Positions 36,249 through 61,546 of a stretch of DNA of 64,000 nt are shown here, piece by piece (the first letter of the stretch is position 1; each line of letters begins with the position of its first letter). The stretch comes from Lutibacter sp. Lineage in GTDB: Bacteria; Bacteroidota; Bacteroidia; Flavobacteriales; Flavobacteriaceae. The stretch covers positions 124,001 to 188,000 of the forward strand of contig JAUXPH010000040.1 in NCBI GenBank assembly GCA_030683995.1, read 5' to 3'. Position numbers and translations under genes: made by a program. The notes under the pieces are model-generated. The model was not told where the DNA came from. It saw nothing but the letters and a program-made list of their open reading frames with translations, and did no database searches.

Positions 36249-36408
36249 TATTATTTAATTCTTAATTACCTGTTTCTTTTTTATTTGAACGGAAACAATC
36301 AAAAAAAATAAAATTTAAAGATGAGTGTTCTTAAAAAATATAACAGTCTAAGCCTTCCAGTTATTGCATGTGAAATAATGTATCAAAAAATCAATAATAA
36401 AAATTAAC

Positions 36409-37254
36409 ATGAAAAAATTAACTATTATACCGATTTTTATGCTGATAAGTATGCTTTCAAATGCACAGTCGTTGGAAGTTATGACCTACAATATTCGATT
36501 GGATGTAGCGGTTGACGGCGAAAATGCCTGGCCGCTTAGGAAAGATTTCCTTGCCTCACAAATTCAATTTTACGAACCTGATATTTTTGGAATCCAGGAA
36601 GCAAAACCAAATCAAGTTGTTGATATCTCAACAATGCTCCCTAAATACGATCAGGTTGGTATTGGACGGGAAGGAAAAGGAAAAGGGGAATCTTCCAATA
36701 TTTATTACAAAAAAGACCGATTTCTGCTTAAAGAATCCAGTACTTTTTGGCTATCGGAAACTCCCGATAAAATTTCAAAAGGTTGGGACGCCGCATTTAA
36801 CAGGGTTTGCACCTATGCCCTGCTTAAAGATAAAAAAACCAGGAAAAATATTTGGGTTTTTAATACGCATTTAGACCATAAGGGTGATGCAGCCAGAACT
36901 AAAGGCCTTGAATTGATACTTTCAAAAATTGCGGAAGTAAACACTAAAAATTACGACGTGATATTTATGGGTGATTTTAATTCTGAACCCCATGAAGATC
37001 GAATCATTTTACTAAAAAATTATATGAATGACAGCAGGGATATTTCTGAAGAAAAACCCTTTGGCCCTGCAGGAACTTTTAATGGATTTAACCATCATGA
37101 ACCAGTGACTTTATTGATTGATTATATATTTATCTCTAAAGTCAGTGATTTAAAAGTTAATAAATATGCGATTTTAAGCGATTCAAAAGATTTGAAATAT
37201 CCTTCGGACCATTTGCCTGTCTATGTTAAACTAAGTTACAATAATGAAAAATAA
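36409..37254 (+). CDS. Secreted endonuclease/exonuclease/phosphatase-fold (EEP) hydrolase
   Basis: A 281-residue exported protein (signal peptide about 1-19, SNAQ) with the complete EEP metal and catalytic set: MTYNIRLD (N28), GIQEAKPNQ (E64), NTHLDHKGD (H154), MGDFNSEP (D189, N191) and YPSDHLPVY (D267, H268). The fold hydrolyses phosphomonoesters or phosphodiesters, including phospholipids, nucleic acids and inositol phosphates. Its place inside a glucan locus suggests action on a phosphorylated or phosphodiester-substituted glycan, but that is inference. The last 11 bases overlap the GH30 gene. Confidence 0.88.
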   Translation: MKKLTIIPIFMLISMLSNAQSLEVMTYNIRLDVAVDGENAWPLRKDFLASQIQFYEPDIFGIQEAKPNQVVDISTMLPKYDQVGIGREGKGKGESSNIYYKKDRFLLKESSTFWLSETPDKISKGWDAAFNRVCTYALLKDKKTRKNIWVFNTHLDHKGDAARTKGLELILSKIAEVNTKNYDVIFMGDFNSEPHEDRIILLKNYMNDSRDISEEKPFGPAGTFNGFNHHEPVTLLIDYIFISKVSDLKVNKYAILSDSKDLKYPSDHLPVYVKLSYNNEK

Positions 37255-43403: not shown

Positions 43404-46400
43404 ATGGACCCTAACCAATCATATATAGGCAACACTAAATTATTCACCAATAACAATAAAGTTGAAGGAAACATTGTAAATATTGAGGGCGAAAGCTTCT
43501 ATAAAATTTCGAACAGTCACAAAATGCGCCCTTTTTTTATGAGTATGGTGAGCGATTCAAATCATTGGATGTTCATTTCAAGCAATGGTGGATTAACGGC
43601 TGGCAGAAAAGATTGCGACACAGCGCTTTTCCCCTATTATACCGATGATAAAATTACAGAATCTGTTGATATTACAGGCAGCAAAACCATATTTCAAATA
43701 CATAAAGAGGACAAAAATTTATTATGGGAACCGTTTTGTGATAAATATGAAAGTGTTTATGCCATTACCCGAAATCTTTATAAAAACAATTATGGCAATA
43801 AAATTATTTTTGAAGAAATAAATCACGATTTGGGCCTGACGTTTCAATATGAGTGGAATAACAGCAACAATTTTGGGTTTGTCAAAAAATCGACGCTGAT
43901 CAACAATAGTGTGGAAGATTTGGAGATTGGTGTTTTGGACGGAATTCAGAATATCCTTCCGTTCGGATTATCGGCCGATTTGCAAAACAGCAAAAGCAAT
44001 TTGGTTGATGCCTACAAAAAAAACGAATTAGAAGCGGAAATTGGATTGGGAATTTTTGTCTTAAGTGCCATTATTGTTGACAAAGCAGAACCTAGTGAAG
44101 CACTAAAAGCAACCATTGTTTGGTCTGTTGGTTTAAAAAATCCAACTTATTTAATTTCATCTTTACAATTAAATAATTTCAGAATAGGATTTAAAATTGA
44201 ACTAGAAACAGACATAAGAGCCGAAAAAGGGGCTTATTTTATTTGCGCTGAAATCAACCTTGAAGCCAACGCGAAAAAAACTTGGACAATAGTCGCCAAT
44301 GTGAATCAGGGTCCGGCAGCCATTGTAAATATTTCGGAAAAATTAAAATCGCCTAAAAACTTGGAGCAAGAAGTTTTGGCAGATATTGCATTGGGCACAA
44401 AAAACTTGATTCAGTTAACGGGAAATTCCGACGGATTTCAGGTTACCAACGATGAACTTCGCACAACACGCCACTACGCAAACACGCTTTTTAACATTAT
44501 GCGCGGCGGTATTTTTGATGAAAACTATCAGATAAACAAGGACGATTTTACAAAATACCTTGAAAAAGCAAATATAAATGTGTTCAGGAAGTATGAAAAA
44601 GAATTGGCACTATTACCGGAAATATTTTTATTAAAAAATCTTAAAAAACTTGCGCAACAAAATAAAGACTCCAATTTTAAACGGCTTTGTTTTGAATATA
44701 TGCCTCTGAAATTCAGCAGAAGACATGGCGATCCCAGCAGGCCTTGGAATAAATTTTCCATCAATACCCGCAGTGAAATAGACGGCTCAAAAATTTTGGA
44801 TTATCAGGGAAACTGGCGTGATATTTTCCAGAATTGGGAAGCACTGGCGCACTCCTACCCAGAATTTATTGAAAGTATGATTCACAAATTTTTGAATGCC
44901 ACCACTTTTGACGGTTACAATCCGTACCGCGTTACCAAAGACGGTTTCGATTGGGAAGTGATTGAACCAGATGATCCTTGGTCGTTTATTGGCTATTGGG
45001 GCGATCATCAAATTGTCTATTTGTTGAAATTTTTAGAATTTGCCGAAAACCACTATCCGAACAAATTGGCTGATTATTTTAATCAGGAATTGTTTGTGTA
45101 TGCGAATGTTCCGTATAAAATAAAAAATTATTCAGAAATTCTGAAAAACCCAAAAGACACCATCGATTTTGACCATCAATTGGATCAGAAAATCAATGAA
45201 CAAAAAGCAATATTGGGTGCCGATGGCGCTTTACTCCTATCTCAAACCCAAGAAATTTACAAAGTCGGTTTGACAGAGAAATTGCTGGCAACGGTGTTGG
45301 CCAAGCTTTCCAATTTTATTCCGGAAGCCGGTATTTGGCTCAACACGCAAAGACCCGAATGGAACGACGCAAACAACGCCTTGGTGGGCAACGGCGTTTC
45401 TATGGTTACTTTGTATTATTTGAAACGATTTTTAAATTTCTTTGAAGAAATTGTTGAAAATGCTTCGGTTGAAAACGTTTCAATTTCAAATGAATTGGCC
45501 GTATTTTTTAAAGAAATTGTCGCCACATTTGATAAAAATCAACACCTGTTATCTGGTAAAATTTCCGATGCGGACCGTAAAAATGTGGTGGACGGACTTG
45601 GATTGGCGGGAAGCCATTTCAGAACCTCGATTTATGAAAAAGGATTTTCTAGCCATAAATCGGTACTGAGCAAAAAGGAATTGTCACAGTTTTTTGTGTT
45701 GACCAAAAAATTTATAGACCACACCATCCATGCCAATAAACGTGCAGATAATTTGTACCACGCGTATAATTTAATGACCATCGAAAATACCCAGGAAATT
45801 TCCATTTCCTATTTGCCGGAGATGCTGGAAGGACAAGTTTCTGTGCTAAGTTCGGGACATCTTTCACCGGCAGAATCTTTGGCCTTGCTGAACAGTTTAA
45901 GAAAAAGCGCTTTGTACCGGGCAGATCAAAACAGTTATGTTTTATATCCGAACAAACAGCTTAAAAGATTTGTTGACAAAAATAATATTCCTTTATCAGC
46001 CATAGAAAAATCGGATTTAGCGAAAGAATTACTGAAAAACGGAAATTCACAAATCATTGAAAAAGATGTGTTGGGAAATTGCCATTTCAATGGCAATTTT
46101 AACAATGCCAACAGCCTTAAAACTGCCTTGGAAACATTGCCTAAAGCTTATCAAAAACTCGTTGAAAAAGACCGAGAATTGCTGTTGACAACATTTGAAA
46201 ATATTTTCAGCCACAAATCATTTACTGGTCGTTCAGGCACATTTTTCGGTTATGAAGGACTTGGTTCCATTTATTGGCATATGGTTTCAAAACTGGCATT
46301 GGCCGTTCAGGAAACTTGCGTAAATGCGATTGAATCTGGTGCTGAAAATGAAATTATTGCCGGATTGGAAAATCATTACCACGAAATAACCGACGGCATT

Positions 46401-46871
46401 GGTGTTCACAAATCACCTGAAGTGTATGGCGCATTTCCAACCGATCCGTATTCGCACACACCGGCAGGAAAAGGTGCGCAACAGCCTGGAATGACTGGCC
46501 AGGTTAAGGAAGATGTTTTGGCAAGAATGGGCGAATTGGGTGCTTTCGTAAAAAATGGCATCCTTAAATTTCAGCCTGATTTGTTGAAAAAAGAAGAATT
46601 TCTTAAAGAAGAAAAAACAGTTTATTTTACCGATGTGAACCTTCGGGAAAAAGAATTGATGCTTGAAAAAAATTCACTTTTCTTTACTTATTGCCAAGTT
46701 CCCGTTGTTTATAAATTGGCGGATAAAAATGCAATTCAGGTTATTTATTCCGATGATAAATCAGTGGAAATTGATGGATTGAATTTAAACCCTGAAATAA
46801 GCGAACAAATTTTTGAGAGAACCAGAGCAGTTTCAACGATTTTGGTGTATCTGAAAGAAAGCAATTTTTAA
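43404..46871 (+). CDS. Putative cytoplasmic beta-1,3-glucan phosphorylase (GH94-like; GH149/GH161 type)
   Basis: A 1155-residue protein with no signal peptide, in contrast to the exported enzymes around it. It shows an N-terminal beta-sandwich region (FISSNGGLTAGRKDCDTALFPYY) and an (alpha/alpha) barrel like GH94 phosphorylases. RPEWNDANNALVG corresponds to the DWND motif of cellobiose phosphorylase, with D655 as candidate catalytic acid, and HTPAGKGAQQPGMTGQVKED to the phosphate-site region. Length fits GH149 and GH161, which reversibly cleave beta-1,3-oligoglucans to glucose 1-phosphate. The family choice is inference from memory. It would conserve energy on imported oligosaccharides. Confidence 0.65.
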   Translation: MDPNQSYIGNTKLFTNNNKVEGNIVNIEGESFYKISNSHKMRPFFMSMVSDSNHWMFISSNGGLTAGRKDCDTALFPYYTDDKITESVDITGSKTIFQIHKEDKNLLWEPFCDKYESVYAITRNLYKNNYGNKIIFEEINHDLGLTFQYEWNNSNNFGFVKKSTLINNSVEDLEIGVLDGIQNILPFGLSADLQNSKSNLVDAYKKNELEAEIGLGIFVLSAIIVDKAEPSEALKATIVWSVGLKNPTYLISSLQLNNFRIGFKIELETDIRAEKGAYFICAEINLEANAKKTWTIVANVNQGPAAIVNISEKLKSPKNLEQEVLADIALGTKNLIQLTGNSDGFQVTNDELRTTRHYANTLFNIMRGGIFDENYQINKDDFTKYLEKANINVFRKYEKELALLPEIFLLKNLKKLAQQNKDSNFKRLCFEYMPLKFSRRHGDPSRPWNKFSINTRSEIDGSKILDYQGNWRDIFQNWEALAHSYPEFIESMIHKFLNATTFDGYNPYRVTKDGFDWEVIEPDDPWSFIGYWGDHQIVYLLKFLEFAENHYPNKLADYFNQELFVYANVPYKIKNYSEILKNPKDTIDFDHQLDQKINEQKAILGADGALLLSQTQEIYKVGLTEKLLATVLAKLSNFIPEAGIWLNTQRPEWNDANNALVGNGVSMVTLYYLKRFLNFFEEIVENASVENVSISNELAVFFKEIVATFDKNQHLLSGKISDADRKNVVDGLGLAGSHFRTSIYEKGFSSHKSVLSKKELSQFFVLTKKFIDHTIHANKRADNLYHAYNLMTIENTQEISISYLPEMLEGQVSVLSSGHLSPAESLALLNSLRKSALYRADQNSYVLYPNKQLKRFVDKNNIPLSAIEKSDLAKELLKNGNSQIIEKDVLGNCHFNGNFNNANSLKTALETLPKAYQKLVEKDRELLLTTFENIFSHKSFTGRSGTFFGYEGLGSIYWHMVSKLALAVQETCVNAIESGAENEIIAGLENHYHEITDGIGVHKSPEVYGAFPTDPYSHTPAGKGAQQPGMTGQVKEDVLARMGELGAFVKNGILKFQPDLLKKEEFLKEEKTVYFTDVNLREKELMLEKNSLFFTYCQVPVVYKLADKNAIQVIYSDDKSVEIDGLNLNPEISEQIFERTRAVSTILVYLKESNF

Positions 46872-46907: not shown

Positions 46908-48167
46908 ATGAAAAAATATCAGAATATTGTAATCGCCCTAGCCATTATTTCCGCAGTCAGTTCGTGTAAAGTCACGGAAAATAAATCGGAAAAAACAACT
47001 GTAAATACCTTGAGTTTTGTAAAAACAAAAGGAACACAATTGGTTGACGCAAATGGCAATTCCATCATTTTAAAAGGAACAAATTTGGGTCACTGGCTTG
47101 TTCCTGAAGGCTATATGTTTAAAATGAATCAGGTAAATGCGCCCCGAAAAATTGATGAAATGTTGTATGAATTGGTTGGGCCAGACAGTTTACAGGTTTT
47201 TTGGCAAGGATTTTTGAACAATTACATCACCCATGACGACATTAAATATTTAAAAAACATCGGCAGTAACCATATTCGCCTGCCTTTTCATTATAAAATG
47301 TTTACGGACGATTTGTATATGGGCGAAAGAAATGCAGGTTTTAAATATTTTGACCGATTGCTGGATTGGTGCCGACAAGAAAAAATGTATGTTTTATTGG
47401 ATATGCATGGTGCGCCGGGCGGACAAACGGGTGACAATATAGACGACAGTTATGGCTATCCTTTTCTTTTTAAAAGCAAATCGTCCCAGGATTTAATGAC
47501 AGAAATTTGGGTGAAAATTGCTGAAAAATATAAAAACGAACCCTTAATTATCGGTTATGATATTGTAAATGAACCGATTGCGCATTATTTTAACGATGAA
47601 CTTCCCTATTTAAACCATCAGTTGTTTTTGCTTTATAAACGCATTGTCGCAGAAATTAGAAAAGTGGATAAAGAACATACCATTTTTCTGAATGGCTCAA
47701 ACTGGAGCGGAAATTTTGATGTGTTCGAAGAAATTATTGATGATAATGTGGTGTATGAGTTTCATAAATATTGGTTTGAAGTAAATCAGGGAGCCATACA
47801 GCAATATCTCGATTTTAGGGACAAACACCAAGTTCCGATTTATATTGGAGAAACTGGCGAAAATACCGATGAATGGGTAAACGATTTTAGAATTTTGCTG
47901 GACAAACACGAAATTAGCTGGGCTTTTTGGCCCTATAAAAAAATGAATAATCTTGCCGGCATTATGAATTTTAAAGAACCTGAAGATTATCATTTAATCA
48001 CTAAATATGCCGACAGCGATCGTTCTTCTTTTGCTAAAATGAGAGAAAACAGACCCGATATTTTAAAAATTCAAAAAGCGCTGAATGACTATTTAGAAAA
48101 TAGCCTTTACAAAAATAACTTTCCCAATAAAGGATATGTAAAGGCCTTAAATTTTAAAACAGACTAA
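46908..48167 (+). CDS. GH5-family glucan hydrolase lipoprotein, exo-beta-1,3-glucanase-like
   Basis: A 419-residue lipoprotein (AVSSCKVTE, Cys20) with a single GH5 barrel. LKGTNLGHWLVPEGYM and LLDMHGAPGGQTGDN are the strands found in GH5 exo-1,3-glucanases. DIVNEPIAH gives the acid/base (E222) and YIGETGENTDEW the nucleophile (E315); WAFWPYKK is the typical substrate Trp strand. The role is probably to trim beta-1,3 or beta-1,6 oligosaccharides. It lies 36 bases after the phosphorylase and 47 before the GH3 gene. Confidence 0.88.
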   Translation: MKKYQNIVIALAIISAVSSCKVTENKSEKTTVNTLSFVKTKGTQLVDANGNSIILKGTNLGHWLVPEGYMFKMNQVNAPRKIDEMLYELVGPDSLQVFWQGFLNNYITHDDIKYLKNIGSNHIRLPFHYKMFTDDLYMGERNAGFKYFDRLLDWCRQEKMYVLLDMHGAPGGQTGDNIDDSYGYPFLFKSKSSQDLMTEIWVKIAEKYKNEPLIIGYDIVNEPIAHYFNDELPYLNHQLFLLYKRIVAEIRKVDKEHTIFLNGSNWSGNFDVFEEIIDDNVVYEFHKYWFEVNQGAIQQYLDFRDKHQVPIYIGETGENTDEWVNDFRILLDKHEISWAFWPYKKMNNLAGIMNFKEPEDYHLITKYADSDRSSFAKMRENRPDILKIQKALNDYLENSLYKNNFPNKGYVKALNFKTD

Positions 48168-48214: not shown

Positions 48215-50503
48215 ATGAAACAGCTTTTTTTATCCATTTTACTTGTTATTTCTATAATAATTGTTGGCTGTAAAAGCCAAAATAATCTTGCCAATTCCAC
48301 ACAAAATTCCTCCATTGACCAAAAAGTTGATTCCATTTTGGCTTTAATGACGCTTAAGGAAAAAGCGGGACAAATGTTGAATATTGGCTTGCCGGCAGTT
48401 TTGACAGGCGATTATTGGGATGCACGGGATAAGGTTGATTATAATTCAGAAAAATTTAAACAGTTAATAATCGATTATGCCGTTGGTTCCATTCATAATA
48501 CGCCCGGTTATCCGGCAGAAAAAGAAGATTGGTACCAAATCCTTAAAAAAATTCAGGATTCCGCTATGCAAAAAACCCGCTTGGGAATTCCGGTTTTGTA
48601 TGGAATTGACAATATTCACGGAGCCAATTATGTGAATGGATCTGTGATGTTTCCGCATCAAATAGCGATGGCGGCCACTTGGAACACCGAACTCACTAAA
48701 ATATCGGCAGAAATCACATCTTATGAATCGAGAGCCGCCTCCCTTCCCTGGAATTTCAATCCGAATGCCGATGTGGCTTTGAATCCGCTTTGGGGAAGAA
48801 TTGGCGAAAGTTTTGGCGAAGATCCTTATTTAATTTCAGAAATGAGTCTGGCGTATTTACAAGGTCCACAAGAAAAAGGCTTACAGGATTCCACCAGCAC
48901 CGCGGTTTGCTTAAAACATTTCATAGGATATGGCGCAGGAAAAAATGGAAAAGACCGTGCAAATGCACTGATTCCAGAAAACAGTTTGCGACAATATTTT
49001 TTGCCGCCTTTTGAAAAAGCCATACAAAATGGCGCAAAGGGCGTGATGATCAGTTCCAATGCAGTGAATGGAATTCCGTGTCATATCAACAGTTATTATA
49101 TCAATGATATTTTAAAAGGCGAACTCGGATTTAAAGGCGTGGTGATTTCCGATTTTAGTGATGTTGAATTTCTGATTACAGCGCATCTATCGGCAAAAGA
49201 CAAGCGCGAAGCGACAAAAATGGCCGTAAATGCCGGTTTGGATATGATTATGAATCCTTTTGAGGCCGATATTGTTGAGATTATTGTTGATTTGGCGGAA
49301 AAAGGAGAAATTCCGTTAAGCAGAATAAACGATGCCGTAACAAGAATTTTGCGATTAAAATATGAACTGAATTTATTTAAAGTTCCCTATAACAATCCGA
49401 AAGGCTACACCAAATTTGCCAGCCAGGAACATATTGACGCCAATTATAAAGCAGCCAGCGAAGCAATAACATTGCTAAAAAACAACAACCATATTTTACC
49501 GCTTACATCAACAAAAAAAGTGTTGGTAACGGGATATTCGGCGAATTCCATCAATATTTTGAACGGCGCCTGGTCGCGGTCTTTTTTAGGAAGAGACACC
49601 ATTTATAACGATCCAAGCAAATTAACCATTTTAGGCGCCATAAAAAAACAAGCGGGCGAAGCCAATGTTGAATTTGTGGAAGGAACCGATTATTTGGAAG
49701 ACATCAATTCGGACAAAGCTGTAGAGATGGCTAAAAACGTAGATTATATTGTGGTTTGCGTTGGAGAAATTCCGGCTTCAGAAAAACCTTCCGACATTAA
49801 TGAACTTGATTTGCCTTTGGTTCAGCAGGAATTGATCAAAATGCTTTCAGTCTTAAAAAAACCAATCATTTTAGTGATGGTGCAAGGACGACCAAGAATT
49901 ATCAGAGAAATTGAACCTTTGGTTGAAGCCATTGTTATGGCATATTTACCCGGAGATGAAGGAGGTCGCGCAGTTTCAGATGTGATTTTCGGAAACGTAA
50001 ATCCGAGCGGAAAGCTCCCTTACACCTATCCGAAATATTCAGGAAACATTTTGCCGTATTACTACAAAAGAGCCGATATCAGGGATATCAATTGGGGATA
50101 TGACGGTTTTTATCCGCAGTTTGAATTTGGTTTCGGATTGTCGTACACCACTTTCGGCTATTCCAATTTAAAAATGAGTGCCGACACCGTAAAAGCTTCG
50201 GAAGAACTAAAAATCAGCGTTGATGTAAAAAACACCGGAAACAGAAAAGGAAAAGAAGTTGTGGAAATTTTTCTCAAAGATTTGGTGGCTACCCTTTCAC
50301 CCGATTCCAAAAAATTGGTGCGATTTGAAAAAATTGAGCTCAATCCGGGCGAAACTAAAACGTTAAATTTTGTGCTGCATTCAAAGAATTTGGCCAATAT
50401 TGGGATTCATAACAAATGGATTATTGAGGAAGGCGAATTTGAAATTCAGATTGGCGGCAATCCGCAAAATTTACTGAAAAAAACGTTTTATTATCAGGAA
50501 TAA
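48215..50503 (+). CDS. bglX: GH3 beta-glucosidase lipoprotein
   Basis: Releases glucose from the non-reducing end of beta-glucan oligosaccharides in the periplasm. The 762 residues have a lipoprotein signal (IIVGCKSQ, Cys19), a GH3 N-terminal barrel (LYGIDNIHGANYV, VCLKHFIGYG) with nucleophile D313 in GVVISDFSDVEF, a GH3 C-terminal domain (about 400-620) and a fibronectin-III-like end domain (about 660-755). All family landmarks are intact. Last gene before the second regulator. The symbol follows the nearest well-known family member. Confidence 0.93.
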   Translation: MKQLFLSILLVISIIIVGCKSQNNLANSTQNSSIDQKVDSILALMTLKEKAGQMLNIGLPAVLTGDYWDARDKVDYNSEKFKQLIIDYAVGSIHNTPGYPAEKEDWYQILKKIQDSAMQKTRLGIPVLYGIDNIHGANYVNGSVMFPHQIAMAATWNTELTKISAEITSYESRAASLPWNFNPNADVALNPLWGRIGESFGEDPYLISEMSLAYLQGPQEKGLQDSTSTAVCLKHFIGYGAGKNGKDRANALIPENSLRQYFLPPFEKAIQNGAKGVMISSNAVNGIPCHINSYYINDILKGELGFKGVVISDFSDVEFLITAHLSAKDKREATKMAVNAGLDMIMNPFEADIVEIIVDLAEKGEIPLSRINDAVTRILRLKYELNLFKVPYNNPKGYTKFASQEHIDANYKAASEAITLLKNNNHILPLTSTKKVLVTGYSANSINILNGAWSRSFLGRDTIYNDPSKLTILGAIKKQAGEANVEFVEGTDYLEDINSDKAVEMAKNVDYIVVCVGEIPASEKPSDINELDLPLVQQELIKMLSVLKKPIILVMVQGRPRIIREIEPLVEAIVMAYLPGDEGGRAVSDVIFGNVNPSGKLPYTYPKYSGNILPYYYKRADIRDINWGYDGFYPQFEFGFGLSYTTFGYSNLKMSADTVKASEELKISVDVKNTGNRKGKEVVEIFLKDLVATLSPDSKKLVRFEKIELNPGETKTLNFVLHSKNLANIGIHNKWIIEEGEFEIQIGGNPQNLLKKTFYYQE

Positions 50504-50829: not shown

Positions 50830-53610
50830 ATGAAATATTTTTTTAACATATTCATAGGTTTCTTTTTTTTGTTAGTCATAACAGGCAGTTTAAATGCTCA
50901 GGAATTGCCGCCTATCAATAAATTTACCCCTGAAGATTACGGTGGCGGAAATCAGAATTGGATGATTTCCCAAACGCCAAACAAAATTATTTATGCCGCT
51001 AATAATGAAGGGCTTTTAGAATATAACGGTGCCGACTGGATAATTTATCCTTCACCAAATAACACAATTATTAGGGCTATAAAGGTTGTTGGGAGTCGAA
51101 TTTACAGCGGATGCTACATGGAATTCGGTTATTGGCAAAAAGACAATTTTGGGTCTTTAAAATACCATTCTTTGGTGCCATTGCTTGATGTTAAAATGAT
51201 TGATGATGAGAATTTCTGGAATCTTGTAACCTATGATGATTGGGTACTTTTCCAATCGTTTAACAGAATATATTTTTACAATACCGTTAAAAAAAAGTTT
51301 AATATCATCAATTCCAATAATCAAATTTCAAAAGTATTCAATATTGACAATGTTATTTATTATCAAGTTTTAAATGAGGGATTGTACACCATTGAGGGAG
51401 GAGCGTCTAAATTAATTTCAAACAATTCGGTATTTACCAATGAGTTAATTATTAGTGTTTTTTCCATAGATGACGGATTGCTCATTCAAACCCGTAACTC
51501 CGGCTTTTATGTTTTCAAAAATAATATGGTTTCAAAATGGGATATTCAGGCAAATAAAACCCTAAATGAAATTAAAGTTTTTAACAGTATCCAGCTAAAA
51601 GACAAGAGTTTTGTTTTAGGAACCATTTCAAACGGAATATTTTACTTAACTAAGGAAGGTGCTATAAATTATCAAATCAATCAAAATAATGGTTTAAGCA
51701 ACAATACGGCCTTATCACTTTTTGAAGATGAGGATAATAATATTTGGGCAGGATTGGATAATGGCATTAATTGTATCAATATAAAATCGCCTGTTGGAAT
51801 TTTTAACGATGACAGGGGCGCAATTGGCACCGTATATGCTTCAGCAATATTTAAAAATTATATTTATTTAGGCACCAATCAAGGATTATTCTATAAAAAA
51901 ATTGACGGGATTGAGCCTTATACAATGATTCGCAACACTGCAGGACAAGTTTGGAGTTTGTTTGTTTTTAACAATGAACTGTTTTGCGGTCATCATGTTG
52001 GTACATTTATTATTGAAAAAAATAGAGCCATAAAAATATCCGACAAGTCTGGAACGTGGGATTTTAAACCTATTCCGTCTATAAAAAATGCGCTTCTGCA
52101 AGGTAATTATAACGGCCTCAATGTTTTAATTAAGCAAGATGGTGTATGGAAAGCCAGAAATAAAATTGATGGATTTGATAGCTCTGCAAGACACTTTGAA
52201 TTTTTAAACAATCATGAAATATTTGTAAGCCACGGTTATAAAGGGGTTTTTAAACTTACAATCGACAATAATTTTAATTTTGTTGTCGATATTTCAAAGC
52301 AAACGGAACTTCCTATTGAAAAGAATTCCAGTTTGGTGAAATTTAAAAATACAATATTATATGGATTTAATGAAGGCGTTTTTAAATATGATTTAAAGAA
52401 GAATAAATTTTTAAAAGATTCCTTATTAGGTTCAATAATTACTGAAGAAACATATTTATCGGGGAAATTGACAGTTGATAAAACCCAAAAATTATGGGGA
52501 TTCTCAAAAGAAAACATAAGTTATGTTTCTGTGAATGATTTAACAAATGAATTAGAAATCCATACAATTTCTATTCCAGCTTATTTAAGAAAAGGAATTA
52601 TAGGATTTGAAAATATTACACATATTAAAAACAATAAGTACTTATTGGGAACAACGAGCGGCTATATTACTATAGACCTTTCCCAATTTAATTTAAAAAA
52701 CAATAACCGTGTTTTATTAAATAAAATCTCTTTAAAAAATTCACAATTGTCAAATTATGAAATTGATCTTAAAAATGATGGTGCGTTTAAGTATGAACAA
52801 AATTCTATTATATTTAATTTTAGCGTGCCAGTTTACGATAAATATCAAGCGGTAAAATACCAATATAAACTCGATGGTTATTACGATGAATGGAGTGACT
52901 GGACAAACAAAACAGAATTGATATTTGACACCCTGCCATTTGGCGAATATAATTTGAATGTTCGAGCTAAAGTTGGGAACAAACTTACCGAAAATATTGC
53001 CAGTTATAATTTTATAATTATGAAACCTTGGTATGTGTCCACTCTTGCCATTATTGCTTATTTTTTAACGTTTATTAGTATTTCTTTTTTAATTCATAAA
53101 GCCTATAAAAAATATTATGAAAAGCAACTCAAGCATAAACAACGTGAAAACGAGCAACTAATTACACAAATAAAAAACGAAAAACTAATTCAGGACATAG
53201 AAAACAAAAATAGGGAGTTGGCGATTTCCACCATGAGTTTAATCAAAAAAAATAAAGTGCTTAACACCATTAAAAAAGAATTGATAAATAATGAAGTTGA
53301 ATCAAACAATATGCAAGTTTTGAAATTAATTGAAGGAAATTTAAATAACACAAAAGATTGGAAGTTTTTTGAAGAAGCATTTAACAATGCCGATAAATAT
53401 TTCTTGGATAAAATAAAAAAAGCACACCCTAATTTAACTCCCAATGATTTACGCTTTTGTGCCTACTTGCGTTTAAATTTAACTTCAAAGGAAATTTCAC
53501 CTTTGCTCAACATTACGGTAAGAAGCGTTGAGACTAAACGTTACAGATTAAGAAAACAAATGGGTTTAAGCCGAGATTCGAGTTTGGTTAACTACATTTT
53601 AGAAATTTAA
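50830..53610 (+). CDS. Membrane-bound propeller/Y_Y_Y/LuxR-HTH regulator of PUL 2
   Basis: A 926-residue paralogue of the regulator at 25294 with the same order: signal peptide (about 1-23, LNAQ), periplasmic beta-propeller (SLFEDEDNNIWAGLDNGI), Y_Y_Y domain, one membrane helix (about 735-757), coiled coil and LuxR-type HTH (about 866-915). The HTH is almost the same (PNDLRFCAYLRLNLTSKEIS, RSVETKRYRLRKQMGL), so both may bind the same DNA, while the propellers differ more, implying related but distinct ligands. It sits right before the second susCD pair. Confidence 0.88.
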   Translation: MKYFFNIFIGFFFLLVITGSLNAQELPPINKFTPEDYGGGNQNWMISQTPNKIIYAANNEGLLEYNGADWIIYPSPNNTIIRAIKVVGSRIYSGCYMEFGYWQKDNFGSLKYHSLVPLLDVKMIDDENFWNLVTYDDWVLFQSFNRIYFYNTVKKKFNIINSNNQISKVFNIDNVIYYQVLNEGLYTIEGGASKLISNNSVFTNELIISVFSIDDGLLIQTRNSGFYVFKNNMVSKWDIQANKTLNEIKVFNSIQLKDKSFVLGTISNGIFYLTKEGAINYQINQNNGLSNNTALSLFEDEDNNIWAGLDNGINCINIKSPVGIFNDDRGAIGTVYASAIFKNYIYLGTNQGLFYKKIDGIEPYTMIRNTAGQVWSLFVFNNELFCGHHVGTFIIEKNRAIKISDKSGTWDFKPIPSIKNALLQGNYNGLNVLIKQDGVWKARNKIDGFDSSARHFEFLNNHEIFVSHGYKGVFKLTIDNNFNFVVDISKQTELPIEKNSSLVKFKNTILYGFNEGVFKYDLKKNKFLKDSLLGSIITEETYLSGKLTVDKTQKLWGFSKENISYVSVNDLTNELEIHTISIPAYLRKGIIGFENITHIKNNKYLLGTTSGYITIDLSQFNLKNNNRVLLNKISLKNSQLSNYEIDLKNDGAFKYEQNSIIFNFSVPVYDKYQAVKYQYKLDGYYDEWSDWTNKTELIFDTLPFGEYNLNVRAKVGNKLTENIASYNFIIMKPWYVSTLAIIAYFLTFISISFLIHKAYKKYYEKQLKHKQRENEQLITQIKNEKLIQDIENKNRELAISTMSLIKKNKVLNTIKKELINNEVESNNMQVLKLIEGNLNNTKDWKFFEEAFNNADKYFLDKIKKAHPNLTPNDLRFCAYLRLNLTSKEISPLLNITVRSVETKRYRLRKQMGLSRDSSLVNYILEI

Positions 53611-53848: not shown

Positions 53849-56800
53849 ATGAAAACATTACTATTATCACTTTTTCTATGTTTTGCGGGGATTTCAATTT
53901 ATGCGCAAAATTATGAAATTAAAGGAGCCGTTTCCGACGCAAGCGGCACGCCTTTACCCGGAGTTTCTTTGGTTGTAAAAAACACAACTAAAGGTGTAAC
54001 AACAGATTTTGACGGTAAATTTACGCTGTCCAATGTTCAAAAAGGAGAAACACTGGTGTTCTCTTATATTGGATACACCACAAAGGAAATTGTAATCAGC
54101 AATGCCAATTACCTGAACATTACCCTAAATGAAGACACTCAAAGTTTAGAAGAAGTTGTAGTTGTTGGGTATGGAACACTAAAAAGAACTGATGTTACAG
54201 GAGCTGTCTCAAAAGTTGAAATAGACAAGGCTTTGGCAATTCCAACATCGAATGTTTCAGAGATGCTGCGAGGACAAGCTGCGGGTGTGCAAATTACGTT
54301 AGGTTCAGCCAGACCGGGAGGAACTTCAAATATTTTAATAAGGGGAAGAAATTCCATTCGCGGTGGAAATGATCCGCTGATTGTATTGGATGGTTTTCCT
54401 ATTGAAAATATCAATGATATTAACCCAGATGACATTGCTTCAATTGAAGTTTTAAAAGATGCTTCCGCACAAGCTATTTACGGCGCAAGAGCTTCAAATG
54501 GTGTTATACTTGTTACCACTTTAAAAGGTAAAGAGGGCAAAATGAAAGTTACATTTGGTTCTTATACAACTTCACAAAAATTAACCAAAAACTTTGATTT
54601 GTACAATGCTGAAGAGTTTGCGCAATTGAGAAGAGAAGCAAAAAGAACAGACAATACGCCAAGCCAAGCTTATTTATCTGATGAATTAAGTTTTAACGGC
54701 GCTACATCACCAGAATATTTGAATTATTTGGCAGGCAATTACACAAATTGGGAAGATGAAGTGCTAAGAACTGGTTTAATCACCAGCAATACCGTAAGTC
54801 TGTCAGGCGGTACAGAAAGCACAAAAATATTTACAAGTTTTAATTATTTCGACCAATCAGGATTGATCCCTTCTTCTGAATATAACAGAGGATCTTTCAG
54901 GCTAAATATCAATCAAAAAATAAATGAAAGAGCAAGTGTTGAAGCCAATATCAATTTAGCTACCGACAAACAAGAAAAGGAAACTTCAAATTTAGATTTT
55001 ATCACCATTTCCCCATTTACCGGACCTTATGATGAATCAGGAAATCTCGTTAAACTTTTGGCCGGCGCCAATGCGAGCAGTTCTGCGGTAAATCCTTTGT
55101 GGAACATCAGGGAATCCCAAAATGAAATTAAAAATAATTTTTACAATGTAAATTTAGTGGGGAATTACAAACTGGCAAAAAATTTCTCTTACAAATTAAA
55201 CACACTGATCAGCAGAAAATTTATTGATGAAGGAAGTTATATTTCAAAACTTCATTCAGCTGGTGTTAATCTGAACGGAATTGCCAATGTTGCCAATACC
55301 TTGAGAGAAGAATATTTGATTGAAAATATTTTAAATTATAATGCAAGTATTGGAGAAGACCATAAATTTGATTTCACGGCTGTACAATCTGCCAATCAAA
55401 TCAACACTTCAAAAACAATTTCAAACGGAACTGGTTTTGGGAATGATTTACTTGGATACGATGGAATCAGTTCTGCTTTAAATTTTAAAGTAACCCGACT
55501 TGAGGAGCAAAAAAGAATCTTGTCATTTTTAGGAAGGGCAAGATATACTTTAATGGATAAATATCTTTTTACTTTTACGGCTCGTAGAGACGGCGCATCT
55601 GTTTTTTCTGAAAATAAAAAATGGGGATTCTTTCCTGCCGCTTCTGTAGCTTGGCAAATCCATAAAGAAAATTTCTTGATCGGTTCAGAAACTGTAAGCC
55701 AATTAAAAGCAAGGGTAAGTCATGGTTCTGTAGGAAATCAATCGTTGGATCCATATACGACCTTAGGTGTGGTGGGTAACTTCCCATACATTTTTGGAGG
55801 AGCCATTGTTGGGGGCAGTTTACCGGGAACGGTTTTGCCTAACCCAAATTTAACATGGGAAACCTCAACAACCACAAATGCGGGGATTGACTTTGGGTTT
55901 CTTAAAAACAGAATCACAGGTACGGTAGATTATTACAACACAAACACAACCGATTTGTTAACTGATATTACGCTTGGAGGAACATCTGGTTTTAGTTCAA
56001 CAATAACCAATGGCGGTGAATCAAAAAATAGCGGTGTTGAGGTGTTGTTAACTGGGCATATTGTACGAAATGACAATTTTAACTGGAGAGTAAGTGCTTC
56101 ATTCACAAAAAACAAAAACGAATTAATCAAATCGGGTATTGTGGATATTGACGGTGCCCCTAAAGATGATGAAGCCAGAGGCCGTTATATAGGGAAATCA
56201 ATCAATAATATCCGCACATTGGTGTTTGACGGGATTTTCCAAACAGATGCGGAAGCATTGGCTTCACCGCAAGCACAGCCGGGAAGCACCACCAACTCAA
56301 ATCTTACCTTGTTGAAAGCGGGATCTATTCGCGTAAAAGATGTAAACGGTAACGGAATTGTCAATAATGATGACAATATTATTATCAATACAGACCCTGA
56401 ATGGTTTGGCTCTTTTTCTTCCGTTTTTGCGTTTAAAAACTTTGAAGTGTTGGCCGATTTTTACATCGTGGAAGGAGCTACAAAATACAATCCGTTTTTA
56501 GCGAATTTTAATGAAGGAGGAACGCTTCAATCAGTAAGAAATGGCATAAAAGTGGACTATTGGACACCGGAAAGCCCATCAACAACATATCCTCGTCCAA
56601 GTTATCTTAGTGCACCGGCAAATATTGGAACTATGGCAGTGGCAGACGCATCTTATGTTAGATTGAGAACACTGACCATGGCGTATAACTTACCTGCTGC
56701 GGTTTTAAGTAAATTGAAAATGAGCAATGCCAAATTTTATGTAACTGGCACCAACTTACTTACTTGGACAGATTATAAATCATATAGCCCGGAAAACAAT

Positions 56801-56857
56801 CCAAATGATTTCCCCGACACTAAGTCAATCACTCTTGGATTAAATATTGGTCTTTAA
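53849..56857 (+). CDS. susC: SusC/RagA-family TonB-linked outer membrane importer, PUL 2
   Basis: Second glycan importer of the window, 1002 residues: signal peptide (1-19, IYAQ), carboxypeptidase-regulatory-like domain, LEEVVVVGYGT, plug (ILIRGRNSIRGGNDPLIVLDG, LKDASAQAIYGARASNGVI) and barrel ending ITLGLNIGL. Beyond about residue 112 it diverges strongly from the first SusC, so it is not a recent whole-gene copy. About 40 bases just before its ATG are also conserved with the first susC leader. Its stop overlaps a spurious ATG; the real susD start follows 26 bases later. Confidence 0.97.
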   Translation: MKTLLLSLFLCFAGISIYAQNYEIKGAVSDASGTPLPGVSLVVKNTTKGVTTDFDGKFTLSNVQKGETLVFSYIGYTTKEIVISNANYLNITLNEDTQSLEEVVVVGYGTLKRTDVTGAVSKVEIDKALAIPTSNVSEMLRGQAAGVQITLGSARPGGTSNILIRGRNSIRGGNDPLIVLDGFPIENINDINPDDIASIEVLKDASAQAIYGARASNGVILVTTLKGKEGKMKVTFGSYTTSQKLTKNFDLYNAEEFAQLRREAKRTDNTPSQAYLSDELSFNGATSPEYLNYLAGNYTNWEDEVLRTGLITSNTVSLSGGTESTKIFTSFNYFDQSGLIPSSEYNRGSFRLNINQKINERASVEANINLATDKQEKETSNLDFITISPFTGPYDESGNLVKLLAGANASSSAVNPLWNIRESQNEIKNNFYNVNLVGNYKLAKNFSYKLNTLISRKFIDEGSYISKLHSAGVNLNGIANVANTLREEYLIENILNYNASIGEDHKFDFTAVQSANQINTSKTISNGTGFGNDLLGYDGISSALNFKVTRLEEQKRILSFLGRARYTLMDKYLFTFTARRDGASVFSENKKWGFFPAASVAWQIHKENFLIGSETVSQLKARVSHGSVGNQSLDPYTTLGVVGNFPYIFGGAIVGGSLPGTVLPNPNLTWETSTTTNAGIDFGFLKNRITGTVDYYNTNTTDLLTDITLGGTSGFSSTITNGGESKNSGVEVLLTGHIVRNDNFNWRVSASFTKNKNELIKSGIVDIDGAPKDDEARGRYIGKSINNIRTLVFDGIFQTDAEALASPQAQPGSTTNSNLTLLKAGSIRVKDVNGNGIVNNDDNIIINTDPEWFGSFSSVFAFKNFEVLADFYIVEGATKYNPFLANFNEGGTLQSVRNGIKVDYWTPESPSTTYPRPSYLSAPANIGTMAVADASYVRLRTLTMAYNLPAAVLSKLKMSNAKFYVTGTNLLTWTDYKSYSPENNPNDFPDTKSITLGLNIGL

Positions 56858-56883
56858 TGTTAACTAATTTAAAAAATACAACA

Positions 56884-58542
56884 ATGAAAAACAGTAATAA
56901 ATTTACGAAATGGGGCATTGCACTACTTGCAATCTTTGTTTCCTTGCTTTCATGTAATGAAGATTACTTGCTTGAAGAACCTACATCAGAGTTTACCGCT
57001 GATTTTGTATACAATACTCCAGAAGGACTAGAGTCGGGAGTGGTAGCACTGTATAACATCCAAAGGTCATTTTGGGAAAATTTGGCAAACAATGGATCAA
57101 ATCCGATTGTTTTAGACGCTAAAGATGACTTAAATGTTCCTCGTGGTGGAGAAATTTCTAACTGGGGAAAACTGAACAATGGCAGATTCCCTACCAACAG
57201 TAATGTACATGGTGATTATTGGAAATTGTATTACAGAATTTTAGACCGGTCTAATGCTTTAATAAAAGCAGCCGAATCTGTGACAATGCCCGACGCAAGA
57301 AAAGCGCAAATTGTTTCTGAAGCTAAATTTTTTAGAGCAAATTCGATATTTACATTATTCAAATTGTTTAACAATATTTATGTAACAACCGAGCCTACTA
57401 CACCAGAAAATGCACTGAACATTATTGATGCAAAAACTCCGGAAGCAGATATTTACAAGCTTATTAACGAAGATTTAACCTATGCCATCAGTAATTTAAG
57501 TTGGACACCAACCGCTACAGGAAGAATAGCCCAAGGAGCGGCAAGACACCTTAAAGCCGAAGTGGCATTATGGCAAAACAACTGGTTGGAAGCTAAAACA
57601 CAATCAGAAGCCGTAATTGCACAAGTTGCAAACCATAAATTGGTAGCGTCAACAGATTTAGTGTTTAAAGGCGATATGAACACTACTGAGGCATTGTGGG
57701 TTTTACAATTCAAAAAAGCGGTTAATGGAAATCCGAATAAAATAAACTTCAACTTAATGCCAAATTATGCTGAGCAAACTCCAGGATCAAAGTACACGGT
57801 TGAACAAGGAGGCCGTGGATTTGGATGGTTGACATTGAACAATTACATTCGTAATTTGCTGGCCCAAGATCCTAATGATACCAGAATCAAAGGTTCATAC
57901 TATGTTAAAGATTATTTATATAATGATCCTGCAACATTGCCGGCAGGCCAAACTTTAGGAACCATCATTAGAGACAACCCAGCAGCGCCTTGGAAAGAAT
58001 TTGGTAATCAGGCCAGCAGAAATGGGTTCTTTATTCGTCAAAATGCGGGCTGCAAAAAATACTTCCCAGATGATGGCATTCCTACTGAAGACACGCAAGT
58101 TAAAAATATTATGATGGCTCGGTTGGCTGAAACGTATCTTTATGCAGCAGAAGCAAATTTAATGCTTGGAAATAATTCAGGCGCTTTAACCAACCTTAAT
58201 GCAGTAAGAACCAGAGCAAAAACAGCCGCCTTAACAGGTGCTGTATCCATAGAAGATATTCTTGATGAACAAGCAAGAGAATTGGCTTTTGAAGGTCGTC
58301 GTTGGTATATGTTAAAAAGAACCGGAAAACTGTATGAATATGTTGTGAATCACGCTGGATATGGCAAACCTGGAGATTTAAGTTTGCAAAACACAGGAAC
58401 TAAAGCCAATACCCCTGAAGATCCTTTCACATTTGCGAATGATGCCAGACGCAATATGCAACCTTGGATGGTAAATTGGGTAATTCCACAAAGTGAATTG
58501 AATTTATTGGGGCCTAATTATCCTCAAAACACAGGGTATTAA
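56884..58542 (+). CDS. susD: SusD/RagB-family glycan-binding lipoprotein, PUL 2
   Basis: A 552-residue surface lipoprotein paired with the second SusC. The start at MKNSNKFTKWGIALL gives a proper lipoprotein signal (LLSCNED, Cys24); an upstream ATG overlapping the susC stop adds nine residues before it. YLLEEPTSEF is the SusD N-terminal motif, EAKFFRANSIFTLFKLFNNI and GAARHLKAEVALW the TPR-like helices, and DEQARELAFEGRRWYMLKRTGKL with VIPQSELNL the RagB end. Intact and normal in length. Confidence 0.96.
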   Translation: MKNSNKFTKWGIALLAIFVSLLSCNEDYLLEEPTSEFTADFVYNTPEGLESGVVALYNIQRSFWENLANNGSNPIVLDAKDDLNVPRGGEISNWGKLNNGRFPTNSNVHGDYWKLYYRILDRSNALIKAAESVTMPDARKAQIVSEAKFFRANSIFTLFKLFNNIYVTTEPTTPENALNIIDAKTPEADIYKLINEDLTYAISNLSWTPTATGRIAQGAARHLKAEVALWQNNWLEAKTQSEAVIAQVANHKLVASTDLVFKGDMNTTEALWVLQFKKAVNGNPNKINFNLMPNYAEQTPGSKYTVEQGGRGFGWLTLNNYIRNLLAQDPNDTRIKGSYYVKDYLYNDPATLPAGQTLGTIIRDNPAAPWKEFGNQASRNGFFIRQNAGCKKYFPDDGIPTEDTQVKNIMMARLAETYLYAAEANLMLGNNSGALTNLNAVRTRAKTAALTGAVSIEDILDEQARELAFEGRRWYMLKRTGKLYEYVVNHAGYGKPGDLSLQNTGTKANTPEDPFTFANDARRNMQPWMVNWVIPQSELNLLGPNYPQNTGY

Positions 58543-58827: not shown

Positions 58828-60396
58828 ATGAATAAAATAAGAAAAATTAACATTGGAATTACAGGAATTGTTCTTTTGATTTTTTCCGCTTGTGTTTCAA
58901 CAAAACCAACTCTCATAAACAAAATTTCATTTGCAAAAAACAGTGTAGTGGCCCATCGCGGGGCATGGAAGAAAAATGGTCTGCCGGAAAATTCCATCGC
59001 TTCGCTAAAACAAGCAATTGAATTAAAATGCACAGGCTCAGAATTTGATGTAAGAATGACAGCAGATAATGTGTTGATTGTAACGCATGACCCAACTTAT
59101 AACAATCTTGAAATAGAAAAAACCAACTATTCGGATTTGGCTGCATTAAAACTTTTCAATGGAGAAAAGCTTCCTACTTTAAAAGAATATTTATTGGCAG
59201 GAAGTGAAAACAACAATTCAACCAGGTTATTTTGTGAAATTAAACCTTCAAAAGTAAGTAAGGAAAGAGGAATTGTTATTGCAACAAAAGTCGTTCAACT
59301 GGTACGTGATCTCAATTTGCAGCATATGGTGACTTACATAAGCTTTGACATCGATATTTTGAAGAAAATTGCTGTTCTTGAGCCAAATTCTTCAACCCAA
59401 TATTTAGAAGGCAATAAACCTCCCGAATACTTAAAAATAGCTGGCATTAAAGGAGCCGATTATCATTATTTCAATTACAAAAAACATCCTGAATGGATAG
59501 AAAACGCGAAAAAAAATGACATTATTTTAAATGCTTGGACGGTAAATGAAGCGTCAGATTTAGAATGGCTTCTTGCAAATAATTTTGATTTTATAACCAC
59601 TGATGAACCCGAACTTTTATTGAAACTAACAAAAGAAAGGAAAATCTTATATAAAGATTATCAATTAGTTTGGGCTGATGAATTTAACACAGCAGGTTTA
59701 CCCGATTCAACAAAATGGAATTATAATGTTGGCGGTGATGGTTATGGCAACAATGAAAAGCAATTTTATTTGGAAAAAACTCTTGAAAATTCGTTTGTAA
59801 AAGATGGAAAATTGCATATTGTTGCTTTGAAAAAAGAACATCAGAATTCGCAATACACCTCTGCCCGATTAACAACTTACGGAAAATATAGCTTACAATA
59901 CGGTAAAATTGAAGTGATGGCAAAGTTACCTGAAGGAAAAGGCACTTGGCCTGCCATTTGGATGCTTCCCGAAAGTCTGAGAAAAAAAGAGGAAACTTGG
60001 CCCACGTGTGGAGAAATTGACATTATGGAACACGTGGGAAATGATCCAAATATGGTTCATACAACACTGCATACCCAATTGTACAACCATATGCATAATA
60101 CGCAAATTTCTCATTTTGAGAGATTGACAGATGTTTTTAACACCTCTCATTTATACAGCGTTGAATGGGAACCTGATACCATCAAATTTTTTATTGACAA
60201 TAAGTTGTTTTTTGAAGCTTTTAAAGGACAAGACGGAAAAGACACTTCCAATGAAGGCTGGCCATTTGACAAACCGTATTTTTTAATTTTAAATCTTGCC
60301 ATCGGCGGAAATTGGGGCGGTGAAATTGATGACACCATTTTTCCTGCCCAAATGCAAATAGATTACGTTAGAATCTATCAAAAACCAACACTTTAA
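58828..60396 (+). CDS. Bifunctional fusion: glycerophosphodiester phosphodiesterase + GH16 glucanase (lipoprotein)
   Basis: A single 522-codon frame joins two complete enzymes after a lipoprotein signal (IFSACVST, Cys22). Residues about 38-268 are a GDPD domain with HRG (H43, R44), ENS (E54), EFDVR (E72, D74), THDPT (H87), FCEIKP (E137) and the end motif AWTVNEASDLEWL...FITTDEP. Residues about 278-520 are a GH16 jelly-roll with GEIDIMEH (E396, D398, E401). GDPDs cleave glycerol-phosphodiesters, so the fusion suggests a beta-glucan carrying phosphoglycerol or a similar group. It lies after the second susCD pair. Confidence 0.9.
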   Translation: MNKIRKINIGITGIVLLIFSACVSTKPTLINKISFAKNSVVAHRGAWKKNGLPENSIASLKQAIELKCTGSEFDVRMTADNVLIVTHDPTYNNLEIEKTNYSDLAALKLFNGEKLPTLKEYLLAGSENNNSTRLFCEIKPSKVSKERGIVIATKVVQLVRDLNLQHMVTYISFDIDILKKIAVLEPNSSTQYLEGNKPPEYLKIAGIKGADYHYFNYKKHPEWIENAKKNDIILNAWTVNEASDLEWLLANNFDFITTDEPELLLKLTKERKILYKDYQLVWADEFNTAGLPDSTKWNYNVGGDGYGNNEKQFYLEKTLENSFVKDGKLHIVALKKEHQNSQYTSARLTTYGKYSLQYGKIEVMAKLPEGKGTWPAIWMLPESLRKKEETWPTCGEIDIMEHVGNDPNMVHTTLHTQLYNHMHNTQISHFERLTDVFNTSHLYSVEWEPDTIKFFIDNKLFFEAFKGQDGKDTSNEGWPFDKPYFLILNLAIGGNWGGEIDDTIFPAQMQIDYVRIYQKPTL

Positions 60397-60892: not shown

Positions 60893-61546
60893 ATGAAAAT
60901 TCAAAAAAATATTTTAATCCTGCTTTTATTAATTTCAACAAATACGTTTGCGCAAGAGTATCAAAAAATATGGCAAACAGAAATTGACGCTTTCGACAAA
61001 TTAAATGGAGATAATCTTATGCAAGAAGGCATTCTTTTTACAGGAAGTTCGTCCATTAGAATGTGGAAAGATCCCGCCAAAGATTTCAACAATCCGAAAA
61101 TTCTGAACAGAGGTTTCGGAGGCTCCCAAATCTTAGATTTAATAGAAAATTTTGATCAAATAATTTTAAAATATCATCCCAAAAAAATCGTTATTTATTC
61201 AGGAGACAACGATATTCAGGAAGGGAAATCGGCCGAAATTGTTTTTGGGGATTTCTGTACATTATATGGCATGATTAAAGCCAAATTGCCAAATGCCGAG
61301 GTGTATTATATCGCTATCAAACCAAGTTTAAACCGTTGGGCAAAAGTAATAGAAATGCAAAAAGCAAATACCATGATTAATGAGTATTTAAACACCAAAT
61401 CAAATGCCTCTTTTGTGGATATATTTTCACCTATGATTGATATAAGCGGTAAACCAAGCGAAAAATGGTTTATGGAAGACGGCTTGCATATGACTGATGA
61501 AGGCTATCAATTATGGACAAAGATTTTGGCGCCGTATATTAAATAG
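60893..61546 (+). CDS. Secreted SGNH/GDSL-type esterase
   Basis: A 217-residue exported hydrolase (signal peptide about 1-20, TFAQ). The four SGNH blocks are present: FTGSSSIR (catalytic Ser about S53), NRGFGGSQ (G74), YSGDNDIQEG (N106) and EDGLHMTDEGY (D196, H199). Such enzymes remove acetyl or other acyl groups from glycans, or act as lipases. At the end of a glucan locus it could deacylate the substrate, though it is separated from the fusion gene by about 500 bases and may be independent. Confidence 0.9.
   Translation: MKIQKNILILLLLISTNTFAQEYQKIWQTEIDAFDKLNGDNLMQEGILFTGSSSIRMWKDPAKDFNNPKILNRGFGGSQILDLIENFDQIILKYHPKKIVIYSGDNDIQEGKSAEIVFGDFCTLYGMIKAKLPNAEVYYIAIKPSLNRWAKVIEMQKANTMINEYLNTKSNASFVDIFSPMIDISGKPSEKWFMEDGLHMTDEGYQLWTKILAPYIK

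Follow-up and report, generated by a model that had tools for sequence, protein, structure and literature searches.

A predicted GDPD-GH16 lipoprotein in a Lutibacter beta-glucan locus and the phosphoesterase genes that accompany its relatives

Introduction

Proteins that join a glycerophosphodiester phosphodiesterase (GDPD) domain to a GH16 domain are already known. The solved example is a multidomain beta-1,3(4)-glucanase deposited in the PDB in free form (7WW4) and with laminaritriose (7WWC); the available part of PMC12448869 (2025) describes 7WWC as a glucanase from Pedobacter terrae that was crystallised together with laminarin, without an accompanying publication. A 2015 table of a Sphingobacterium wheat-straw secretome, as excerpted, contains four secreted GH16 proteins (RWS13-16) whose nearest entries are named GDPD (PMC4666044). 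Going by these names rather than by sequences, we infer that RWS13-16 very likely carry the same domain pair. The open-licence literature yielded no paper on what the pair does, and the available text of PMC4666044 tabulates the likely pair without comment.

The two halves have better described relatives. In the excerpted account of Bacillus subtilis GlpQ, the ligands are His-43, Arg-44, Glu-70, Asp-72, His-85 and Glu-152, and Gln-188 contacts the substrate glycerol (PMC7086022). The pattern WPA...WXX...WPX of subfamily GH16_3 is, according to the relevant part of PMC6827312, common also to GH16_1. Bacteroidetes loci that bear GH149 have been tied to laminarin (PMC6484121, in excerpt). Here we analyse a GDPD-GH16 fusion gene from Lutibacter sp. 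within a window of 64,000 nucleotides (the whole stretch of DNA under study). What is new is not the architecture of the fusion but its genomic company, in which phosphoesterase neighbours recur.

Results

The fusion gene (58828-60396, +) was predicted to be one uninterrupted frame, and this was borne out: it is a single ORF of 522 amino acids with no internal stop. Its product is a predicted lipoprotein, with a signal peptide (58828..58893, +) ending at Cys22 of a lipobox-like IFSAC motif (residues 18-22), which was recognised from the sequence and a simple pattern rather than by a signal-peptide program. The GDPD domain (residues 43-262; 58954..59613, +) matches PF03009 with 86.2 bits against a cutoff of 23.6 (E 4.8e-24), covering positions 1-243 of the 244 in the profile. 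The GH16 domain, of the laminarinase type (residues 311-514; 59758..60369, +), matches PF00722 with 84.7 bits against a cutoff of 22 (E 6.8e-24), and the nearest stand-alone solved structure to this half is the laminarinase 3iln (E 1.1e-74). All catalytic residues named beforehand (H43, R44, E72, D74, H87 and E137 for GDPD; E396, D398 and E401 for GH16) were found at their positions, and K139 is also present in the GDPD site. The protein therefore has the HR, ExD, H and E metal/catalytic residues that define the GDPD family and the ExDxxE site plus PF00722 match that define GH16. WPAIWML (374-380) and WPT (391-393) conform to the GH16_3 pattern, although the available part of PMC6827312 does not give T, the last residue of WPT, as one of those usual in the third motif.

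We aligned 52 distinct fusions (the window, 50 further loci and locus L226 of genome G877), which reach down to 46% identity. Seven GDPD residues (the six above and K139) are identical in all 51 fusions that are readable there; the remaining one, locus L131, starts where its contig does. E396 and D398 are kept in 52/52 and E401 in 51/52, the exception having Q. Judged by its sequence, the GDPD half almost certainly works as an enzyme. At the position of the E. coli GlpQ substrate glutamine, to which B. subtilis Gln-188 is probably equivalent, 51 of the 52 fusions have Ile and one has Val; the fusions thus lack the glutamine that marks the GlpQ type. A structure model computed from 19 fusions, with no templates, had a pLDDT of 88.0 and a pTM of 0.80. 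Foldseek placed it on 7WW4 and 7WWC over 489 columns at 2.0 and 1.9 Å respectively (TM 0.95 by target length, 50% identity), and phmmer matched 7WW4 to the window protein with 537.9 bits (E 2.2e-160). Model and crystal agree over both domains, which shows one domain arrangement in proteins that are half identical.

The region from 25.3 to 61.5 kb of the window is one co-directional glucan locus, all on the forward strand and presumably co-transcribed. A regulator is followed by SusC1, a TonB-dependent receptor (28383..31490; PF13715, PF07715), SusD1 (31503..33014; PF07980, PF14322), two small proteins, a second GH16 without GDPD (35157..36248; PF00722, E 1.4e-26) and a phosphatase-like PF03372 (EEP) protein (36409..37254). 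Then come two GH30 enzymes (37244..38698 and 38726..40195; both PF02055), an MFS sugar transporter (40279..41793; PF00083), a GH2 TIM-barrel-like protein (41801..43114; PF02836), a GH149 beta-1,3-glucan phosphorylase (43404..46871; NF058639, 1787.7 bits, cutoff 1150), a GH5-like protein (46908..48167; PF00150) and a GH3 beta-glucosidase-like protein (48215..50503; PF00933, PF01915). A regulator with a Y_Y_Y domain (50830..53610; PF07495) stands ahead of SusC2, a TonB-linked outer membrane transporter (53849..56857; TIGR04056, 829.5 bits), and SusD2 (56857..58542; PF07980, PF14322) lies directly upstream of the fusion. A GDSL-type esterase/lipase (60893..61546; PF13472) is found downstream. SusC/SusD together with GH16, GH30, GH3 and GH149 make this a laminarin-type polysaccharide utilization locus, and the enzyme content fits a branched beta-1,3/1,6-glucan. 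By homology the EEP protein is mannosyl-6-phosphatase-like, its nearest solved structures being 3mpr and 4c1r ('mannosyl-6-phosphatase', E 3.7e-44).

In one relative (G003, locus L061) the fusion is placed between the GH16 and EEP genes, and in three others (G001, G026, G029) this slot holds a GDPD-less GH16 that is 75-76% identical to the GH16 of the fusion. The corresponding slot in the window measures only 160 bp (36249-36408), and a gene seems to have been moved from it or lost. The window fusion, like that of G023, sits at the opposite end of the locus behind SusC2/SusD2. Two proteins of the window match no Pfam family: one of 509 residues (61648-63177, -) and one of 313 (34144-35085, +). 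Relatives of the latter recur in related glucan loci, at 36% identity in L061 and 56-65% in L078, L080, L081 and L226.

The fusion is present in 10 of the 38 genomes of the window's genus, which excludes an assembly artefact. A sample of 396 genomes of the class, the window's included, has it in at least 10, a lower bound because three best candidates were taken per genome. The family of G351, called Sphingobacteriaceae and holding Pedobacter, has it in 27 of 201 genomes, a 28th match being a solo GDPD; a phylum sample of 395 genomes gave 10 matches, of which nine are fusions and one a solo GDPD. Among the matches listed, all fusions are from Bacteroidota, and the loci include Pedobacter, Runella, Tamlana sedimentorum and Gelidibacter salicanalis. 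In a GDPD tree of 52 rows (35 fused, 17 solo), which omits 17 Pedobacter-type fusion loci and contains two solo pairs of identical copies, fused and solo domains are intermixed, with seven changes of state, at least five of them forced by starred branches. A GH16 tree (83 of 130 rows) has fused domains in three places, with five changes, at least three forced; one fused group (L097, which is G554, and L131) stands beside the window's other GH16. These trees are suggestive of repeated fusion of GDPD to GH16, no more, and independent origins were not upheld: the AU test does not reject a single clade for all fused GH16 domains (p 0.188).

For 37 of the 52 fusions the next gene downstream, in the same orientation, encodes a phosphoesterase: EEP in 16 and PC-PLC (phosphocholine-specific phospholipase C) in 21. 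(An initial count of 38/52 included the duplicates L129 = L102 and L130 = L072; without them it was 36/50, and adding the window, not adjacent, and L226, adjacent, gives 37/52.) The EEP cases are 15 of the 50 fetched loci and G877 (L226), where the gap is four bases; all 16 EEP genes overlap the fusion or are separated from it by no more than 25 bases, with mechanically assigned ORF starts. The PC-PLC cases are all from Sphingobacteriaceae. The enzyme of L070 scores 740.7 bits against TIGR03396 (an NCBIfam equivalog; cutoff 580), and the remaining 20 were named by their likeness to it. The simple lipobox pattern is found in 10/16 EEP-linked fusions and in 0/21 PC-PLC-linked ones, and several of the six EEP-linked misses still carry a Cys after a hydrophobic stretch. 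Neither partner adjoins the other 15 fusions, including that of the window, whose EEP gene is 21.6 kb away. In one genome (L065) a PhoD-like gene comes after EEP. Pedobacter-type genomes (L070, L071, L072, L075 and others) often have a divergent DUF4175 protein of about 1100 residues adjoining the fusion and PC-PLC.

As a control we used fusion-free GH16 loci: 80 loci less 12 (L121-L131, L181) left 68, in 67 of which the GH16 ORF was found by HMM. With local HMMs, EEP was a direct neighbour on either side in 3/67 and PC-PLC in none. Because these HMMs derive from families that occur at fusions, a Pfam scan is the fairer control; in 111 control neighbours it found PF03372 three times, among the 25 commonest of 130 families, beyond which a single PF04185 neighbour could lie. 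The Fisher p of 2.9e-15 for the enrichment treats related loci as independent and should not be read literally. The counts cluster along lineages: EEP goes with SusCD loci, in Flavobacteriaceae and a few other groups, and PC-PLC with Sphingobacteriaceae, so that they represent roughly two associations, one per lineage. EEP also follows GH16 without GDPD in L078, L080, L081, L197, L198 and L246.

The pair does not always lie behind susCD, an arrangement that the original prediction had raised: the fusion directly follows SusD in 16/52 (15 of the 50 loci and the window). The SusD of L060 and L077 was confirmed by Pfam as PF12771, a different family from SusD2. SusCD lies farther upstream within the locus in L061, L127 and L226, the upstream gene is outside the view in L066, L105 and L131, and the remaining 30 fusions are not directly behind SusD. 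A spread of the pair beyond glucan loci, which had been named as a possible refutation, was found in part. For the 28 Sphingobacteriaceae fusions, the stretch read spanned 17-20 kb in 12 cases and only 1.5 kb in 16; a SusC/SusD label is absent from 10 of those 12 (L229 has one weak SusC-HMM match), and the other two, in G554 and G501, follow SusD. Nor does a SusC2/SusD2 pair always come with GDPD, since the SusD2-like places L246 and L247 have none in 20 kb.

GDPD domains of other arrangements were also found. In G367 and G240 one ORF behind a SusC2/SusD2-like pair joins PF03372 to PF03009, both over cutoff (L248:10314-11861, +; L249:7934-9499, -), with no GH16 within 20 kb. These GDPD domains score 72 and 55 bits against the fusion-GDPD HMM, compared with 325-430 for complete GDPD-GH16 fusions; they belong to another subfamily with the catalytic set kept, which suggests that GDPD and EEP were joined in a separate way. 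The EEP-GDPD fusion is rare: among matches in 75 genomes of the same family no further one was seen, the others covering the EEP half only. Both genes stand directly behind SusC/SusD; neighbours are a PF01663 phosphodiesterase on the opposite strand (L248) and a sulfatase-family gene (L249), and the loci are possibly uptake loci for phosphodiesters. In Larkinella arboricola (L181:7971-9559) GDPD and GH16 are separate genes with a one-base overlap, the pair being unfused or split there.

A solo GDPD of G514 (L235) lies behind a SusC2/SusD2-like pair, and the 18 kb read there gave neither GH16 nor EEP. Beyond the solo GDPDs of G514 and G775 we collected 27 stand-alone GDPD loci, of which L079 is only 5.6 kb long. 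Within the stretches read, none of the 27 has GH16 and one adjoins EEP. Four, from two genera, combine GDPD with a GH144 endo-beta-1,2-glucanase and SusC/SusD (L084, L085, L086, L087) and are candidate loci for phosphoglycerol-bearing periplasmic glucans. A general link of GDPD to GH144 was rejected: GH144 occurs in 64/396 class genomes but in only 4/27 of these loci. In L082 and L079 (G003 and G029) a GDPD 67-68% identical to that of the window adjoins a GH2 exo-glucosaminidase-type gene; L082 also has GH20 and a SusCD pair, and G003 also carries a GDPD-GH16 fusion. The surroundings of this copy suggest a different glycan target.

Discussion

We observe two domains with complete active sites, a conserved arrangement of the two, a glucan locus and recurrent phosphoesterase company. 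Our preferred reading, to which we give a probability of roughly 0.45, casts the window protein as a surface lipoprotein in which both halves are active: GH16 would cleave beta-1,3-glucan, and GDPD would hydrolyse a phosphodiester that most probably belongs to that glucan too. SusC2/SusD2 would take up a single target class, most likely a beta-1,3/1,6-glucan with phosphodiester-linked groups. Fragments released would pass into the periplasm, where the PF03372 enzyme would strip off any phosphate ester still present, the glucan being finished by GH30, GH3 and GH149. Phosphorylated mycolaminarin of oomycetes is a candidate substrate.

A phosphorus-bearing target is made likely by the phosphoesterase that is the next gene in 37/52 fusions, and the EEP-GDPD fusions, the overlapping pair of L181 and the 7WW4-like arrangement also speak for one glucan as the target of both halves. 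Several observations count against it. We identified no natural phosphorylated beta-1,3/1,6-glucan in this analysis. EEP occurs beside GH16 without GDPD in the six loci given above, GDPD with EEP and SusC2/SusD2 with GDPD occur without GH16, and GH16 is missing from all 27 stand-alone GDPD loci. Twenty-one fusions stand beside PC-PLC, a phospholipid enzyme, the Sphingobacteriaceae pair is mostly away from SusCD, and 15/52 fusions have no adjoining partner.

Some of the same observations would suit a protein whose halves act on different molecules that co-occur in dead algae, fungi, oomycetes and plants, the fusion merely co-localising the two activities. GH16 would then attack storage or wall glucan and GDPD the glycerophosphodiesters of membrane lipids, while PC-PLC or EEP would assist in releasing phosphate. 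PC-PLC behind the fusion in 21 Sphingobacteriaceae loci speaks for such feeding on debris, as do the EEP-GDPD loci with an adjoining PF01663 or sulfatase-family gene and no GH16, and GDPDs classically cut deacylated phospholipids (PMC7086022, in excerpt). However, it leaves unexplained why the two-domain arrangement is kept at 50% identity, why the kin of EEP is a glycan phosphatase by its PDB name and why 16/52 fusions are directly behind SusD. We consider this explanation possible but doubtful. A GDPD half that is enzymatically dead, its role being to bind glycan or to act as a spacer, is far less probable, indeed very unlikely: 7WW4 and 7WWC are named only as beta-1,3(4)-glucanase and we found no GDPD activity on record, but seven active-site residues identical in every readable fusion, down to 46% identity, argue against a mere binding module.

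The original prediction proposed a more specific target, phosphoglycerol-substituted bacterial glucans such as periplasmic or cyclic beta-glucans. The complete active sites, the beta-1,3/1,6-glucan locus and the phosphoesterase genes next to most fusions agree with it, whereas GlpQ stereochemistry and the beta-1,2 backbone oppose the phosphoglycerol and periplasmic-glucan part, which is in our view unlikely. E. coli-type periplasmic glucans are beta-1,2-linked, so a GH16 laminarinase, being a beta-1,3-glucanase, is not expected to cut them. Their phosphoglycerol derives from phosphatidylglycerol (sn-glycerol-1-phosphate), and the cyclic beta-1,3/1,6-glucans of bradyrhizobia carry phosphocholine, not phosphoglycerol. 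Excerpts of PMC10514313 state that E. coli periplasmic glucans can carry phosphoglycerol and treat the periplasmic-glucan enzymes as beta-1,2-glucanases. Characterised GlpQ-type GDPDs cut only sn-glycerol-3-phosphoryl esters, as the available part of PMC7086022 has it; with Ile or Val for the GlpQ glutamine in 52/52 fusions, this strict stereo-rule may not apply. The four GH144-linked GDPDs in SusCD loci of two genera are the best support for glycan-linked diesters as substrates of this GDPD family, but they are a minority and point to another backbone. Among 19 window proteins scanned there was no PF10091 (GH144), so the locus is not of the beta-1,2 kind, and the one strong GH144 match of the genome is on contig C15, whereas the window is on C11.

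Should the two halves share one molecule after all, as we prefer, phosphodiester-bearing beta-glucans would genuinely serve as food in water and soil, glucan turnover would be linked to phosphorus turnover, the fusion would offer a tool enzyme for detecting such glucans, and a two-domain structure that was solved but still without a paper as of PMC12448869 (2025, available part) would gain a function. All three pairings, GDPD-GH16, GH16 with EEP and EEP-GDPD, were found as fusions or tight co-directional neighbours, each with an example behind a SusC2/SusD2-like pair. We tentatively suggest, while thinking it somewhat less likely than not to hold, that Bacteroidota have a modular, repeatedly reassembled kit for phosphodiester-decorated beta-glucans, made up of GDPD, sugar-phosphatase-like EEP and GH16, with PC-PLC or PhoD as further partners. 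A phosphorylated beta-1,3/1,6-glucan or a phosphocholine-bearing bacterial glucan would then be a nutrient so far unrecognised for these bacteria.

Compared with known systems, the window fusion has the same domain order as 7WW4/7WWC and, with roughly 50% of residues identical, aligns with it from end to end. In Pedobacter's family, the 21 fusions that adjoin PC-PLC never show the simple lipobox; unlike these, the window fusion is a predicted lipoprotein behind SusC2/SusD2. Sphingobacterium RWS13-16 are tabulated in a plant-biomass setting, with no function given in the available part of PMC4666044. The catalytic/metal ligands of GlpQ from B. subtilis and E. coli (His, Arg, Glu, Asp, His, Glu) match the fusion GDPD in order, but the latter has Ile/Val for the glutamine and shorter inserts, and is fused to GH16. 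The top-ranked single-domain GDPD, 3NO3 (BDI_0402 of Parabacteroides distasonis; 42% identity, TM 0.94), is without GH16, and the laminarinases 3ILN (Rhodothermus marinus) and 5WUT (Flavobacterium sp. UMI-01) share the GH16 fold in matched chains without GDPD. The window EEP aligns with the PF03372 mannosyl-6-phosphatase 4C1R/3MPR over 20-259 (E ~1e-44) and is found in a beta-glucan locus. With Bacteroidetes laminarin loci that have GH149 and GH30 (PMC6484121, as excerpted) the window shares its gene content, to which it adds GDPD and a sugar-phosphatase-like gene.
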